Below are positions 28,391-34,068 of a stretch of 64,000 nt of DNA, piece after piece (positions within the stretch are counted from its first letter, which is position 1; the number at the start of each line of letters is the position of its first letter). The position numbers and the translations under genes were made by a program. The DNA comes from Verrucomicrobiaceae bacterium (GTDB taxonomy: Bacteria; Verrucomicrobiota; Verrucomicrobiia; Verrucomicrobiales; Verrucomicrobiaceae), in the NCBI GenBank assembly GCA_019694165.1, contig JAIBCL010000020.1, positions 1-64,000 of the forward strand. Direction: 5' to 3'. The notes under the pieces were generated by a model. That model was not told the origin of the DNA, made no database searches, and was given only the letters and a program-made list of their open reading frames with translations.

Positions 28391-28660
28391 ATGCCCACCG
28401 TGGAGTTTACGCCCAACCTCGCGCGCCAGACGACGACCCGCAGTTGCCGCGTCGAGGGTGCGACGGTGGCCGATGCGCTGCGTGCCGTGTTCGAGGAACT
28501 GCCCGCGCTGCGCGGCTACGTGCTCGACGACCAGGGCGCCGTGCGCACGCATGTGGTGATTTTTGTCGATGCGGTCGCGGTTTGCGATCGCAAGAACCTC
28601 TCGGATCCGCTGCGCCCGGACTCCGAGGTCTTCGTCATGCAGGCGCTTTCAGGAGGATGA
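28391..28660 (+). CDS. MoaD/ThiS-like beta-grasp protein ending in Gly-Gly
   Basis: This small protein of 89 residues starts MPTVEFTPNLARQ and ends in LSGG. The VEGATVADALRAVFEELPAL stretch and the terminal diglycine are those of MoaD/ThiS sulfur carriers, which are adenylated and thiocarboxylated at the last glycine. No moaE, thiG or E1-like enzyme is adjacent. Its stop is 4 bp from the next gene, and the AGGAGG of its glycine codons serves as that gene's Shine-Dalgarno. I chose ATG 28391 because upstream in-frame codons are non-homologous. Confidence 0.78.
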   Translation: MPTVEFTPNLARQTTTRSCRVEGATVADALRAVFEELPALRGYVLDDQGAVRTHVVIFVDAVAVCDRKNLSDPLRPDSEVFVMQALSGG

Positions 28661-28664
28661 GATC

Positions 28665-29777
28665 ATGAGCGGCAGATTGTTTCTTGGCACCCGAAAGGCA
28701 CTCATCGAAGTGGAGCGTGCATCGAAAGGCTGGCGCATCAAGCGCGCCTCATTCAGCGGTGTTCAGGTCCCGATGCTGCTGCCCGATGCGCGTGACGGCA
28801 CTCTCTACGCAGCCGTCGAGCACGGGCACTACGGCGCCAAATTCCACGCTTCGCGCGATGGCGGCTCGACATGGGAGGAACGCGTTTCGCCCGCCTATCC
28901 GCCGAAGCCGGCGGATGCGCCCGACATCATCTGCTCCATGCGGCAGAAGCCGGTGCCGTGGTCGCTGGAAAAAATCTGGTCGCTCGAAGCCGGCGGCAAA
29001 GACCAGCCCGGCACGCTGTGGTGCGGCACGATTCCCGGGGGCCTGTTCAAATCGAGCGATGCGGGCGCAAGCTGGTCGCTCGTCGAGTCGCTCTGGAACG
29101 AGCCGTCGCGCGCGAAGTGGTTCGGCGGCGGCTACGACTGGCCGGGCATTCACTCCATCGTCGTCGATCCGCGCGATCCGCATCGCATCCTCGTCGCCAT
29201 TTCCTGCGGCGGCGTGTGGGAGACGCTCGATGCCGGCGCGTCGTGGTCTTGCCACGGCAAAGGCATAGTGAATGACTACATGCCGCCTGAACTGGCTGAA
29301 GATCCGGTCGTGCAAGACCCGCACCGCATCGCCATCTGTGCAGCCGCGCCCGACACGATCTGGATGCAGCACCACAACGGCATCTTCCGCTCCACGGACG
29401 GCGGCCGTGCGTGGACTCGCTTCATGAATGCGAATCCCTCGCACTTCGGCTTCGCCGTCGCCGTGCATCCGTGCGATCCGCGGACCGCCTGGTTCGTGCC
29501 CGGCATCAAAGACGAGCAGCGTCTCCCATCCGGCAGGGCTCTCTGCGTCATGCGCACGCGTGATGGTGGCGAGACCTTCGAGCCATGCCGCAAAGGCCTG
29601 CCGCAGGAGCACGCCTATCATCTCGTCTATCGACATTGCCTCGATGTGACGGGAGATGGCCGCACGCTCGCCTTCGGCAGCACCACCGGCTCCGTCTGGA
29701 TCAGCGAGGACGGCGGCGATTCGTGGGGACGCCTCAGCGCCGAGCTGCCGCCGATCTATTGTGTGAGGTTTGAGTAA
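28665..29777 (+). CDS. BNR/WD40-like beta-propeller protein (sialidase-type repeats)
   Basis: This 370-residue protein is built from repeats with Asp-box motifs (SRDGGSTWEE, SSDAGASWSL, TLDAGASWSC, STDGGRAWTR, TRDGGETFEP, SEDGGDSWGR). These define a photosystem-stability/BNR-type propeller. There is no signal peptide, so it should be cytoplasmic, unlike secreted sialidases. No catalytic Arg triad is apparent. Spacing of 4 bp to the MoaD-like gene and a perfect SD at 28651-28656 inside that gene imply coupled expression. Confidence 0.8.
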   Translation: MSGRLFLGTRKALIEVERASKGWRIKRASFSGVQVPMLLPDARDGTLYAAVEHGHYGAKFHASRDGGSTWEERVSPAYPPKPADAPDIICSMRQKPVPWSLEKIWSLEAGGKDQPGTLWCGTIPGGLFKSSDAGASWSLVESLWNEPSRAKWFGGGYDWPGIHSIVVDPRDPHRILVAISCGGVWETLDAGASWSCHGKGIVNDYMPPELAEDPVVQDPHRIAICAAAPDTIWMQHHNGIFRSTDGGRAWTRFMNANPSHFGFAVAVHPCDPRTAWFVPGIKDEQRLPSGRALCVMRTRDGGETFEPCRKGLPQEHAYHLVYRHCLDVTGDGRTLAFGSTTGSVWISEDGGDSWGRLSAELPPIYCVRFE

Positions 29778-29811
29778 CAAGTATTGCGAACGCCCGGCGT
29801 TTGGTGACCGT

Positions 29812-30684
29812 ATGTCCGCTGTGCCTATCGAAAACTCTTCATCGCCCGTTGGCCTCATCGGCCTCGGCTTGATGGGCGGCGCGATGGCTTCACGGCTTCA
29901 GCGAGCGGCGTTCCGATTGCTCGGCTGGGATCGCGATGCAAAGCGCGTGGAGGAGTTCGTGCAAGCCGGCCATGGACGCGCGGGAACAAGCGAAGACGAC
30001 ATCTTTGCGCAATGCACTCGCGTCATATTGAGTCTGCCTGACTCCAATGTCGTGAATGCCGTGCTGCAAAACGGCAACCGCCTGCTGACTGTCGGGCAAG
30101 TCATCGTCGACACATCGACTGGCGATCCGGCGAGTGCTGAAGCGCTGGGGGCAGTGTTGGCGAAGCAAGGTGCTCACTATCTGGATGCGACGGTCTCGGG
30201 CAGCAGCGTGCAGGTGGCTGACGGCTCGGCGGTGCTGATGGTGGGAGGCGATCGTGTGGCGTTCGCGGCTTGCAGCGATTTGTTCGCGCAACTCGGCGCG
30301 AAGACGTTTCACACGGGGCCGTGCGGCAGCGGAGCGAAGGTTAAGCTCGTCACCAATCTCGTGCTCGGACTCAATCGCGCGGCGCTGGCGGAAGGCCTTG
30401 TGTTTGCACGCCAACTCGATCTCGATTCGGTGCTCACACTCGAGATCATGCGCGGCAGCATGGCGTATTCGCGGATCATGGACACGAAGGGCGAGAAAAT
30501 GCTGCGCGAGGATTTCACGCCGCAGGCTCGCTTGTCGCAGCACTTGAAGGACGTGCGGCTCATGCTGGCTGCGAGCGCGAAGAAACTGCCGCTCAGCGAA
30601 GCGCATCGCACGCTGTTGGAAAGAGCGGAGTCGCTCGGCTGCGGCGATCTCGACAACAGCGCAATCATCAAAGCCTATGAGTAG
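29812..30684 (+). CDS. NAD(P)-dependent beta-hydroxyacid dehydrogenase (3-hydroxyisobutyrate dehydrogenase family)
   Basis: The Rossmann motif is GLIGLGLMGGAMASRL near residue 13. DTSTGDPASAEALG near 105 and DATVSGSSVQVADGSAVLMV near 130 are the family's substrate blocks, and KVKLVTNLVLG near 175 contains the catalytic lysine. It has 290 residues from ATG 29812. The next gene, an MFS transporter, overlaps by 8 bp, suggesting uptake and oxidation of a hydroxy acid. The substrate is not deducible. Confidence 0.87.
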   Translation: MSAVPIENSSSPVGLIGLGLMGGAMASRLQRAAFRLLGWDRDAKRVEEFVQAGHGRAGTSEDDIFAQCTRVILSLPDSNVVNAVLQNGNRLLTVGQVIVDTSTGDPASAEALGAVLAKQGAHYLDATVSGSSVQVADGSAVLMVGGDRVAFAACSDLFAQLGAKTFHTGPCGSGAKVKLVTNLVLGLNRAALAEGLVFARQLDLDSVLTLEIMRGSMAYSRIMDTKGEKMLREDFTPQARLSQHLKDVRLMLAASAKKLPLSEAHRTLLERAESLGCGDLDNSAIIKAYE

Positions 30685-31891
30685 CCGCATACTGACGCTG
30701 CTCGCGGCGCTCCTCGGCCTCATCTTCGCGGGAGTGCAGCTCGGGCTGATGCCCATCGCGTCGCTGTCGGTGTCGAAGTCGCTCATGGGATCCGCCTTCT
30801 CCGCCGGTGCGGGCGGCGACTGGGTGGCGCGCTACACTGCGGCAATGATGCTCGGCGGCGCATTTGGCGGCATTTGGCTCGGAGCGCTCGGTGATCGCAT
30901 CGGTCGAGCGAAGGCCGGCGCGGTGTGCGTGCTGGTTTACTCGGTGTTCGGCGGCGCGGGCGTGTTCGTGCAGTCGCAGGAGCAATTGATCGTGCTGCGC
31001 TTTCTCGCCGGACTCGGCGTCGGTGGCATCTGGCCGAATGGTGTCGCGCTGGTGGCGGAATCTTGGAACAACGCCTCGCGCCCGATGGTCGCCGGCGTGG
31101 CGGGCACGGGATTGAATGTCGGCATCTTCGGCGTGTCGCAGCTCGGTCGCATCTTCACCGTCACGGCAGATTCCTGGCGATGGCTCTTTGAAGTGAGCGC
31201 GGTGTCGATCCTGCTTGGCCTCGCGATGTGGTTTGCCCTGCCGGAATCACCGCGGTGGCAAAGCGCGGGGGCGAAGAAAAGCGGCACCCGCGAGTTGTTT
31301 GGTGCTGCGCTGCGACGTCGCACGCTCATCGGCATCGCCGTCGGCTCGATCCCGATCATCGGTGCGTGGGCCGCGAGCAAGTGGATGATCCCTTGGGCCG
31401 ATGCCGTCGGTGGCGTGGTGCGACCTGGCCTCAAAGCGCTCACGCAGCAGTGGTGGGCCGTCGGTGCCATCCTCGGCAGCTTCTTTGGCGCGCATCTCGC
31501 GGACCTGCTCGGTCGTCGCCTCACCTACGCGCTCATCAGCCTCGGCTCCGTGACGATGACCTGCGGCATCTTCGTGTGGTCGCATCCTGCGCATACGGCC
31601 TTTCTGCCGCTCGTGTTTGTTCAAGGCTTCGTCACCACGCTCTTCTTCGGCTGGTTGCCGCTGTATCTGCCCGAGCTTTTCCCCACTCGCGTGCGCGCCA
31701 GCGGGGCAGGTATGGCGTACAACGCAGGACGATTCATCTCCGCCGCGTGCGTGCTGATGGCCGGTGCCTTTATGGCCTGGAGCGGCGGCGACTACGCAAA
31801 AGTCGGCACCATGACCGGCCTCGTCTATGCGCTCGGGCTCCTTGCCATCTGGTGGGCGCCGGAGACGAAAGGCAAGCCGCTGGAGGATTGA
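30677..31891 (+). CDS. MFS transporter
   Basis: This 404-residue transporter of about twelve segments has the MFS signature GALGDRIGRAKAG near 71 and its second-half equivalent ADLLGRRLTY near 275. LPELFPTRVRASGAG near 330 resembles the sugar/metabolite-H+ symporter group (SP/AAHS type). It overlaps the dehydrogenase gene by 8 bp and is likely its substrate importer. Confidence 0.85.
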   Translation: MSSRILTLLAALLGLIFAGVQLGLMPIASLSVSKSLMGSAFSAGAGGDWVARYTAAMMLGGAFGGIWLGALGDRIGRAKAGAVCVLVYSVFGGAGVFVQSQEQLIVLRFLAGLGVGGIWPNGVALVAESWNNASRPMVAGVAGTGLNVGIFGVSQLGRIFTVTADSWRWLFEVSAVSILLGLAMWFALPESPRWQSAGAKKSGTRELFGAALRRRTLIGIAVGSIPIIGAWAASKWMIPWADAVGGVVRPGLKALTQQWWAVGAILGSFFGAHLADLLGRRLTYALISLGSVTMTCGIFVWSHPAHTAFLPLVFVQGFVTTLFFGWLPLYLPELFPTRVRASGAGMAYNAGRFISAACVLMAGAFMAWSGGDYAKVGTMTGLVYALGLLAIWWAPETKGKPLED

Positions 31892-32047: not shown

Positions 32048-32593
32048 ATGGCAGTCTCCAAGAAACCGGCGGCCAAGGCCGCGCCGAAGTCTGATCTGAC
32101 CGTCGATCTCAAAGAGATCACGCAGATCGTGGACCTGATGGCGAAGAATGATCTGACTCTTTTCCACTGGGAGCGCGGCTCCGTGAAGCTGGAACTTCGT
32201 CGCGGTGCCGACTTGGACGCGATCAAGGACATCTTCGGACGTATGCCCGCCCCGGCGCCCGTACCTGTCGCCATGACGGCCGCACCCGCCGCAGGGCCTG
32301 CCGCGCCCGCTGCCGTGTCCGCCCCGGCGCCCTCCGCAGGCGCGAACGAGCCGATGGGGCCGACGATCAATTCGCCCATGGTGGGCACTTTCTACCGTTC
32401 CTCGTCGCCGGGCGAGAAGTCCTTCGTGAGCGTGGGCGACCCGGTGGATGAGAACACCACCGTCTGCATCATCGAGGCGATGAAAGTGATGAACGAAATC
32501 AAAGCCGAGATGCGCGGTACCGTGGCCAAGGTCCTCGTCGAAGATGGCAAACCGGTGCAGTACGGGCAGCCGTTGTTTGAATTGAGAGCCTGA
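32048..32593 (+). CDS. accB: Biotin carboxyl carrier protein of acetyl-CoA carboxylase
   Basis: The C-terminal biotinyl domain has the biotinylated lysine in EAMKVMNE. An Ala/Pro-rich linker (about 77-110) joins it to the N-terminal region. It has 181 residues from ATG 32048. It carries biotin between AccC and the carboxyltransferase (accAD not seen here) in malonyl-CoA formation. accC follows after 113 bp that hold interlocking inverted repeats. Confidence 0.95.
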
Positions 32594-32622
32594 AGCAACG
32601 CCCGTGCCCGCCTTGACTCTGA

Positions 32623-32683
32623 CTTGACGGCTCCCTGACCTCTCCATGCGTCAGGGCAGTCAAGCGGGCAAGGAGCCGTCAAG
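32623..32683. repeat. Interlocking inverted repeats between accB and accC
   Basis: CTTGACGGCTCC (32623-32634) pairs perfectly with GGAGCCGTCAAG (32672-32683). Within it CCCTGAC (32633-32639) pairs with GTCAGGG (32650-32656) around ten bases, and the two stems share two bases. Mutually exclusive folds are possible, so this may be a control structure for accC or a REP-type element. Confidence 0.4.
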
Positions 32684-32706
32684 CAAACCACCGCACCGCA
32701 TCCCCC

Positions 32707-34068
<1,362 letters not shown>

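Follow-up and report, generated by a model that had tools for sequence, protein, structure and literature searches.

Do a small MoaD-like protein ending in Gly-Gly and an Asp-box propeller belong together when their genes lie side by side, and what could the first do for the second? These questions are raised by a gene pair found in a stretch of 64,000 nt from a Verrucomicrobiaceae bacterium, which we call the window. The pair covers positions 28391-29777 and has the following features:

28391-28660, + strand: ORF 1, a MoaD/SAMP1-like beta-grasp protein (ATG to TGA, 89 aa, C-terminus MQALSGG)
28652-28657, + strand: GGA GGA codons, both the terminal Gly-Gly of ORF 1 and the Shine-Dalgarno sequence (SD) of ORF 2
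28665-29777, + strand: ORF 2, a seven-bladed Asp-box (BNR) propeller of the 3b7f family (ATG to stop, 370 aa)

The two genes are 4 bp apart (28661-28664, ORF 1 ending at 28660 and ORF 2 starting at 28665), as claimed in a preliminary description of this DNA. Its second claim, that the glycine codons of the first gene are the SD of the second, also stands: GGAGGA ends 7 nt upstream of the propeller ATG. This placement of an SD within the Gly-Gly codons recurs among pairs. In a count over 80 of the 81 pairs (window included, locus L068 left out), Gly-Gly is encoded as GGAGG in 26 of the 31 pairs whose gap does not exceed 8 nt and in 4 of the 49 with longer gaps. The Fisher p for this association is 4e-12, a value inflated by species relatedness, related species not being independent.

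The nearest curated family for ORF 1 is SAMP1 (NCBIfam NF041918), which it matches with E 1.5e-11 and 44.6 bits. The curated cut-off of 60 is not reached, and membership in the family was rejected on these figures. Pfam ThiS (PF02597) gives E 6.8e-4 and 20.6 bits, below its cut-off of 22.5, and SAMP1 structures are weak matches.

ORF 2 is a 3b7f-family propeller by sequence and by fold match. PDB entry 3b7f is found by phmmer with E 1.5e-50 and is the best structural match of the AlphaFold model (Foldseek TM 0.86); a relative of ORF 2, from locus L048, matches the same entry with Z 48.9. The model has seven blades, counted from the strand list, with pLDDT 94 and pTM 0.92. Pfam detects BNR/Asp-box repeats, with BNR_2 below its cut-off, and no N-terminal hydrophobic stretch is seen by eye in the propeller. 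The 3b7f structure is that of Reut_B4987 from Ralstonia eutropha JMP134, whose function is given as not known; the available part of that report (PMC2716378) deals with structure only and mentions no link to a MoaD gene.

Relatives of the propeller are frequently annotated as exo-alpha-sialidase. GH33 exo-alpha-sialidases have a catalytic Tyr/Glu pair, an Asp and an Arg triad; this assignment was rejected, as neither Tyr nor Glu reaches 85% in any column of our alignment of 131 propellers and the sole invariant Arg is R323. GH74 xyloglucanases have two seven-bladed propellers with catalytic Asp residues. They were rejected too: ORF 2 is a single propeller of 370 aa, versus 685-778 residues in the listed GH74 chains. 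Another rejected candidate is Ycf48/HCF136 (PRK13684), with 18.3 bits versus a cut-off of 326.

Conservation of the pairing

Named genomes were scanned with a 13-row propeller profile. The best 80 loci, which are the closest relatives and not a random sample, all have a MoaD-like ORF directly upstream of the propeller on the same strand (80/80). According to their record titles, from which we have made the phylum assignments ourselves, they come from Verrucomicrobia, Planctomycetes, Pseudomonadota, Acidobacteria, Gemmatimonadetes, Chloroflexi (Anaerolineae), Actinobacteria (Acidimicrobiales) and Myxococcota-type records.

In Pseudomonadota, propeller matches are found in 16 of 299 genomes, 15 of them at family level (>270 bits). 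Among these 15, the MoaD gene is upstream in seven, downstream in six and missing in two, which makes 13 of 15 adjacent; this set includes the seed genome G314, whose locus is L078. Actinomycetota have propeller matches in 58 of 198 genomes, with 58 family-level places in 57 genomes: MoaD is upstream in 16, downstream in 23, fused in eight and absent in 11 (47/58 paired). The seed G325 (L084) is included here, and the weaker places L229-L233 are excluded as another family. Six of 288 Verrucomicrobiota genomes contain the propeller family, with MoaD upstream in one (the window), downstream in four and absent in one, so that five of the six are paired. Sixteen plasmid records matched; in the eight examined, MoaD is upstream in four, downstream without Gly-Gly in one and absent in three.

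The preliminary description had called for such a neighbourhood survey and had raised two doubts: that the pair might not be conserved together, and that the terminal Gly-Gly might not be conserved. Across the named loci and the phylum samples the pair is kept together, and all 33 divergent partners considered in a later section have Gly-Gly. Since both doubts were dispelled in this way, the pairing goes beyond chance. Judging from these comparisons of sequence and gene order, the MoaD-like and propeller genes are a conserved module and belong together.

Gene order differs by clade, with MoaD either upstream or downstream of the propeller. On a propeller tree of 100 rows, in which clade A is represented by one row in three of the A4 set, the arrangement changes at least 11 times, or at least five times if unpaired rows are excluded. 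We have also compared the divergence of the two proteins in 44 pairs: Mantel r is 0.55, and none of 2000 permutations is as high, shared species history not having been removed from this correlation.

Natural fusions in a single ORF are found in eight actinobacterial genomes (L201, L202, L204, L206, L207, L209, L211 and L221). Each begins with the MoaD-like domain and its ...SGG, which here is internal, and continues through a short linker into the propeller. On the tree, the fused label changes three times, all within one clade. A JAMM protein and an E1-like protein are each encoded in 8/8 of these genomes. In six of them (G630, G684, G718, G815, G804 and G761) the E1 and JAMM genes are neighbours by their coordinates, and a separate GG carrier adjoins them. 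Since the E1/JAMM pair sits with this other carrier, the machinery is not dedicated to the fusion.

Neighbouring genes and E1-like enzymes

The absence of the usual E1 or MoaE partner beside the pair, noted in the preliminary description, holds in general: neither is a constant neighbour of the pair. No MoaE or molybdenum-cofactor gene is present among eight neighbouring proteins of the window, and the window's neighbour proteins have no match near the 80 loci. Clustering of 797 ORFs from the best 80 named loci gives no third conserved gene; the large clusters are apparently the pair itself and opposite-strand frames. No carrier-pathway family is found among the 25 of 88 Pfam matches listed, which cover 84 of 126 neighbouring ORFs at 14 of 20 loci (the other six were left out, the propeller being missing from the ORF calls). 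No substrate-pathway gene linked to the pair was seen in the neighbourhood surveys.

A search for an E1-like enzyme elsewhere, also proposed at the outset, was successful: each of the 38 pair-bearing whole genomes that it covered has such a gene, and a plasmid item lacks one. In the window's genome the E1 is of the MoeB type, with a C-terminal rhodanese (G000:C22); a TcdA-like protein, a canonical-type MoaD (G000:C8) and ThiS are encoded in other places. Finding an E1 or a JAMM gene counts for little as evidence, both being widespread among bacteria.

Several other genes were observed near the pair or elsewhere in the genome. Immediately 3' of the pair, the window has a hydroxyacid-dehydrogenase-like gene and an MFS transporter (29770-31891), which are absent beside the pair in the 80 loci. 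At 32050-34068 there is a biotinyl-carrier-like ORF (by eye, about 32050-32593), followed by a biotin carboxylase. A gene of about 350 aa, metallo-beta-lactamase-like by eye, lies near the pair in seven Oxalobacteraceae-type loci (L042, L044, L051, L054, L056, L066 and L072) and is thus a lineage-specific neighbour. At G000:C19:65276-66465 (L013 and downstream) we have detected a 641-aa E1-like ORF with a partial match to the anti-phage 6A-MBL cap2_3 (150.5 bits, cut-off 320) and a JAMM match downstream on the same strand, possibly a defence-type ubiquitin-like system. A further E1-like ORF is found at G000:C34:43610-47224 (L012 and downstream); some 3 kb downstream of it there is a weak match to JAMM.

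The Gly-Gly tail and the conserved face of the propeller

The tail Q[AS]L[ST]GG terminates the MoaD-like protein in 79 of the best 80 named loci; in L068, QALSGG is followed by 11 further residues. M1, Y43, Q84, L86, G88 and G89 are invariant in 59 clade-A proteins (the window plus 58 of the 80 named loci). In 33 partners chosen for their divergence, the only invariant columns are R52, G88 and G89. Some actinobacterial partners have short tails beyond Gly-Gly. Partner tails in L155, L216 and L220 are GAMAGG, SITGGS and SITGGA, respectively.

One exception to Gly-Gly conservation is a Nonomuraea partner (L023:6084-6374), in which the stop codon comes after PALA, without Gly-Gly. Its adjoining propeller keeps all eight conserved residues described below, and groups on the tree with those of large-genome actinobacteria that have no MoaD neighbour. 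This branching makes a decay of the carrier, followed by its loss, possible in these actinobacteria.

In the 299 Pseudomonadota genomes, all seven MoaD matches above 90 bits adjoin a propeller, and the next match has 47.6 bits. Many small Pseudomonadota genomes also have a single copy of another GG carrier (such as MSVTVRIPTPLRKLTGG...IVPAIAGG). It belongs to a second family, has no adjoining propeller and usually bears at least one extra residue after Gly-Gly (L128, L131-L144, L146-L149 and others).

Eight polar residues of the propeller are near-invariant: T9, K11, H163, S180, H220, Q235, H237 and R323. All eight are kept in 126 of the 131 propellers. Some of their codons in the window are the following:

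29151-29153, + strand: His163 codon, conserved in 130/131
29316-29324, + strand: codons 218-220, with Asp218 (Asp in 61 and Cys in 70 of 131) and the invariant His220 (131/131)
29367-29375, + strand: codons 235-237, with Gln235 and His237 (each 131/131)
29631-29633, + strand: Arg323 codon (131/131)

The split between Asp and Cys at position 218 follows clade. Invariant Asp 132 and 189 are part of Asp-boxes. The eight polar residues lie outside these boxes. By the strand order of the model, they are in BC or DA loops or at those ends of strands A and B that border on such loops. In the predicted fold they map to one face, the DA/BC side, where three His and Asp/Cys218 possibly form a metal site.

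No MoaD neighbour was detected for 17 of the 131 aligned propellers, and all 17 keep the eight residues, which suggests that a dedicated carrier may not be needed for the propeller to work. No alignment position separates paired from unpaired propellers at the thresholds used. In 14 genomes with an unpaired propeller we have looked for MoaD elsewhere: AVAGG-tailed carriers are found in 11, and a MoaD of the partner profile is absent in three (G271, G587 and G424), so a propeller can outlive its carrier.

The window's two genes are in different frames, and locus L048 was therefore used for a structure prediction of the MoaD-like protein and the propeller as a readthrough product, its stop codon being read as Ser. 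The prediction has pTM 0.77, lower than the 0.92 of the propeller modelled alone, and tail pLDDT below 50, and thus gives no defined docking or fixed orientation. The alignment had 98 rows, with 14 paired readthrough rows; because the paired rows are few, this negative result is weak evidence either way.

Possible role of the pair

The preliminary description saw in the pair a sign of an uncharacterised sulfur-transfer or conjugation pathway, a view that is borne out in part. Adjacency, fusion, the kept Gly-Gly, the conserved face and the E1 and JAMM genes of the genomes examined are seen in the sequences; any part played by sulfur or conjugates is a prediction, as are docking, a metal and cleavage.

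The likeliest reading, to which we give a probability of about 0.5, is that the MoaD-like protein is to the propeller what MoaD is to MoaE: a carrier of its own, which the housekeeping MoeB-rhodanese would thiocarboxylate. The pair would then be a two-protein module, with a ubiquitin-like carrier on one side and a protein dedicated to it on the acceptor side. A housekeeping MoeB/MoeZ-type E1 with a rhodanese would adenylate the C-terminal glycine and make the thiocarboxylate. The QALSGG-COSH tail would dock into the conserved propeller face, and H163, H220, H237, Asp/Cys218, K11, S180, Q235 and R323 would pass the sulfur to some substrate. The actinobacterial fusions would be cut behind Gly-Gly by a protease, possibly the JAMM protein, in the manner of MoaX of M. 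tuberculosis. According to the available part of PMC4326299, this MoaD-MoaE fusion is cleaved between Gly82 and Ser83, and the cleavage is required for activity.

The MoaD-MoaE and MoaX systems, as far as the same part of that paper goes, resemble our pair in having a MoaD-fold GG protein beside a dedicated partner or fused N-terminally to it, with the internal Gly-Gly kept. They differ from it in the partner, which here is a seven-bladed propeller, and no molybdenum-cofactor gene adjoins the pair in the window. The MoaD subunit of molybdopterin synthase was considered for ORF 1 and rejected: the eight neighbouring window proteins include no MoaE, and a separate canonical-type MoaD is present at G000:C8. 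By analogy, the mode of action may be that of MoaD-MoaE or CysO-CysM, the fold of the partner being new.

A bolder version, which we offer tentatively and with some doubt, is that the propeller is a metallo-propeller (three His plus Asp/Cys) and a new class of acceptor. A dedicated thiocarboxylated protein would hand it the sulfur, or be taken up whole as the carrier, for the making of some product. About eight bacterial phyla would share this pathway, with the two genes kept as pairs of either order or as fusions that are processed.

Adjacency by itself is also compatible with conjugation or with a peptide-receptor role. In the first case, the MoaD-like protein would be conjugated to target proteins in a SAMP-like manner, and the propeller would be a receptor for the substrate or the tail, a transferase or a deconjugase. 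The SAMP1-UbaA-JAMM system (PMC4443979) is similar in that SAMP1 is the closest curated profile of the small protein and possible E1 and JAMM partners are present in the genome, but the small protein falls below the SAMP1 cut-off. The short tails after Gly-Gly in several actinobacterial partners resemble precursors, and the fusion genomes carry E1 and JAMM genes; however, no E2-like, JAMM or target gene is linked to the pair in the neighbourhoods examined. We know of no propeller in the SAMP1 system, and we consider conjugation unlikely.

The tail could also bear an adduct such as cysteine, as in an amino-acid or peptide carrier of the CysO kind, with the propeller forming or releasing the adduct. 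The CysO-CysM-Mec+ system has a GG carrier, a MoeZ-type E1 and a JAMM protease; its acceptor is a PLP synthase, whereas here the acceptor is a propeller. The partner profile also finds AVAGG-tailed carriers, which may be CysO-type, in actinobacterial genomes (64-93 bits), and in the fusion genomes it finds carriers next to genes for E1 and JAMM. Nevertheless, these carriers are encoded by genes separate from the propeller-linked ones, and the propeller bears no resemblance to a peptidase or a PLP enzyme. Such a role seems rather improbable to us.

An improbable alternative does without sulfur chemistry: the propeller would be a scaffold or chaperone and the Gly-Gly tail its structural or regulatory ligand, much as peptides are ligands of Ycf48 and sortilin. 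Foldseek matches include Ycf48 with the D1 peptide and sortilin with neurotensin or a PGRN peptide, and Gly-Gly stays internal in the fusions. In fact, Ycf48, sortilin and DAIP have the same type of Asp-box blade and, going by their titles, peptide or protein ligands in solved structures, but their identity with the window propeller is only 12-16%. Moreover, the joint conservation of T, K, S, Q, R and three His in 126/131 propellers resembles an active site, and a scaffold would need less than an exact Gly-Gly in the tail. Finally, a cytoplasmic glycosidase or sialidase sharing an operon with the MoaD gene by chance is very improbable: the exo-alpha-sialidase annotation and the GH74 enzymes among the fold neighbours point to it, but the propellers have no Tyr or Glu column at 85% or above, BNR_2 is below its cut-off, and the natural fusions and order changes argue against chance adjacency.

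In summary, the carrier-propeller module is real, widespread and apparently undescribed. We have found no description of a MoaD-propeller pair in the open-licence literature. The available part of Iyer 2006 (PMC1779556) does not mention propeller, BNR, sialidase, neuraminidase, glycosyl hydrolase or Asp-box, and the accessible portions of published work on COG4447 concern other contexts.

A propeller tied to its own carrier in many phyla would be a new fold among the acceptors. To our knowledge, few acceptor enzymes are known for ubiquitin-like sulfur carriers, and each of them has so far defined a biosynthetic route (MoaE, ThiG, CysM). The natural fusions provide one-chain material for studies of structure and processing. 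A carrier role would give a function to 3b7f, which is solved but unexplained, and to many proteins annotated as exo-alpha-sialidase, and the pair suggests an unrecognised cytoplasmic step of sulfur or protein chemistry.
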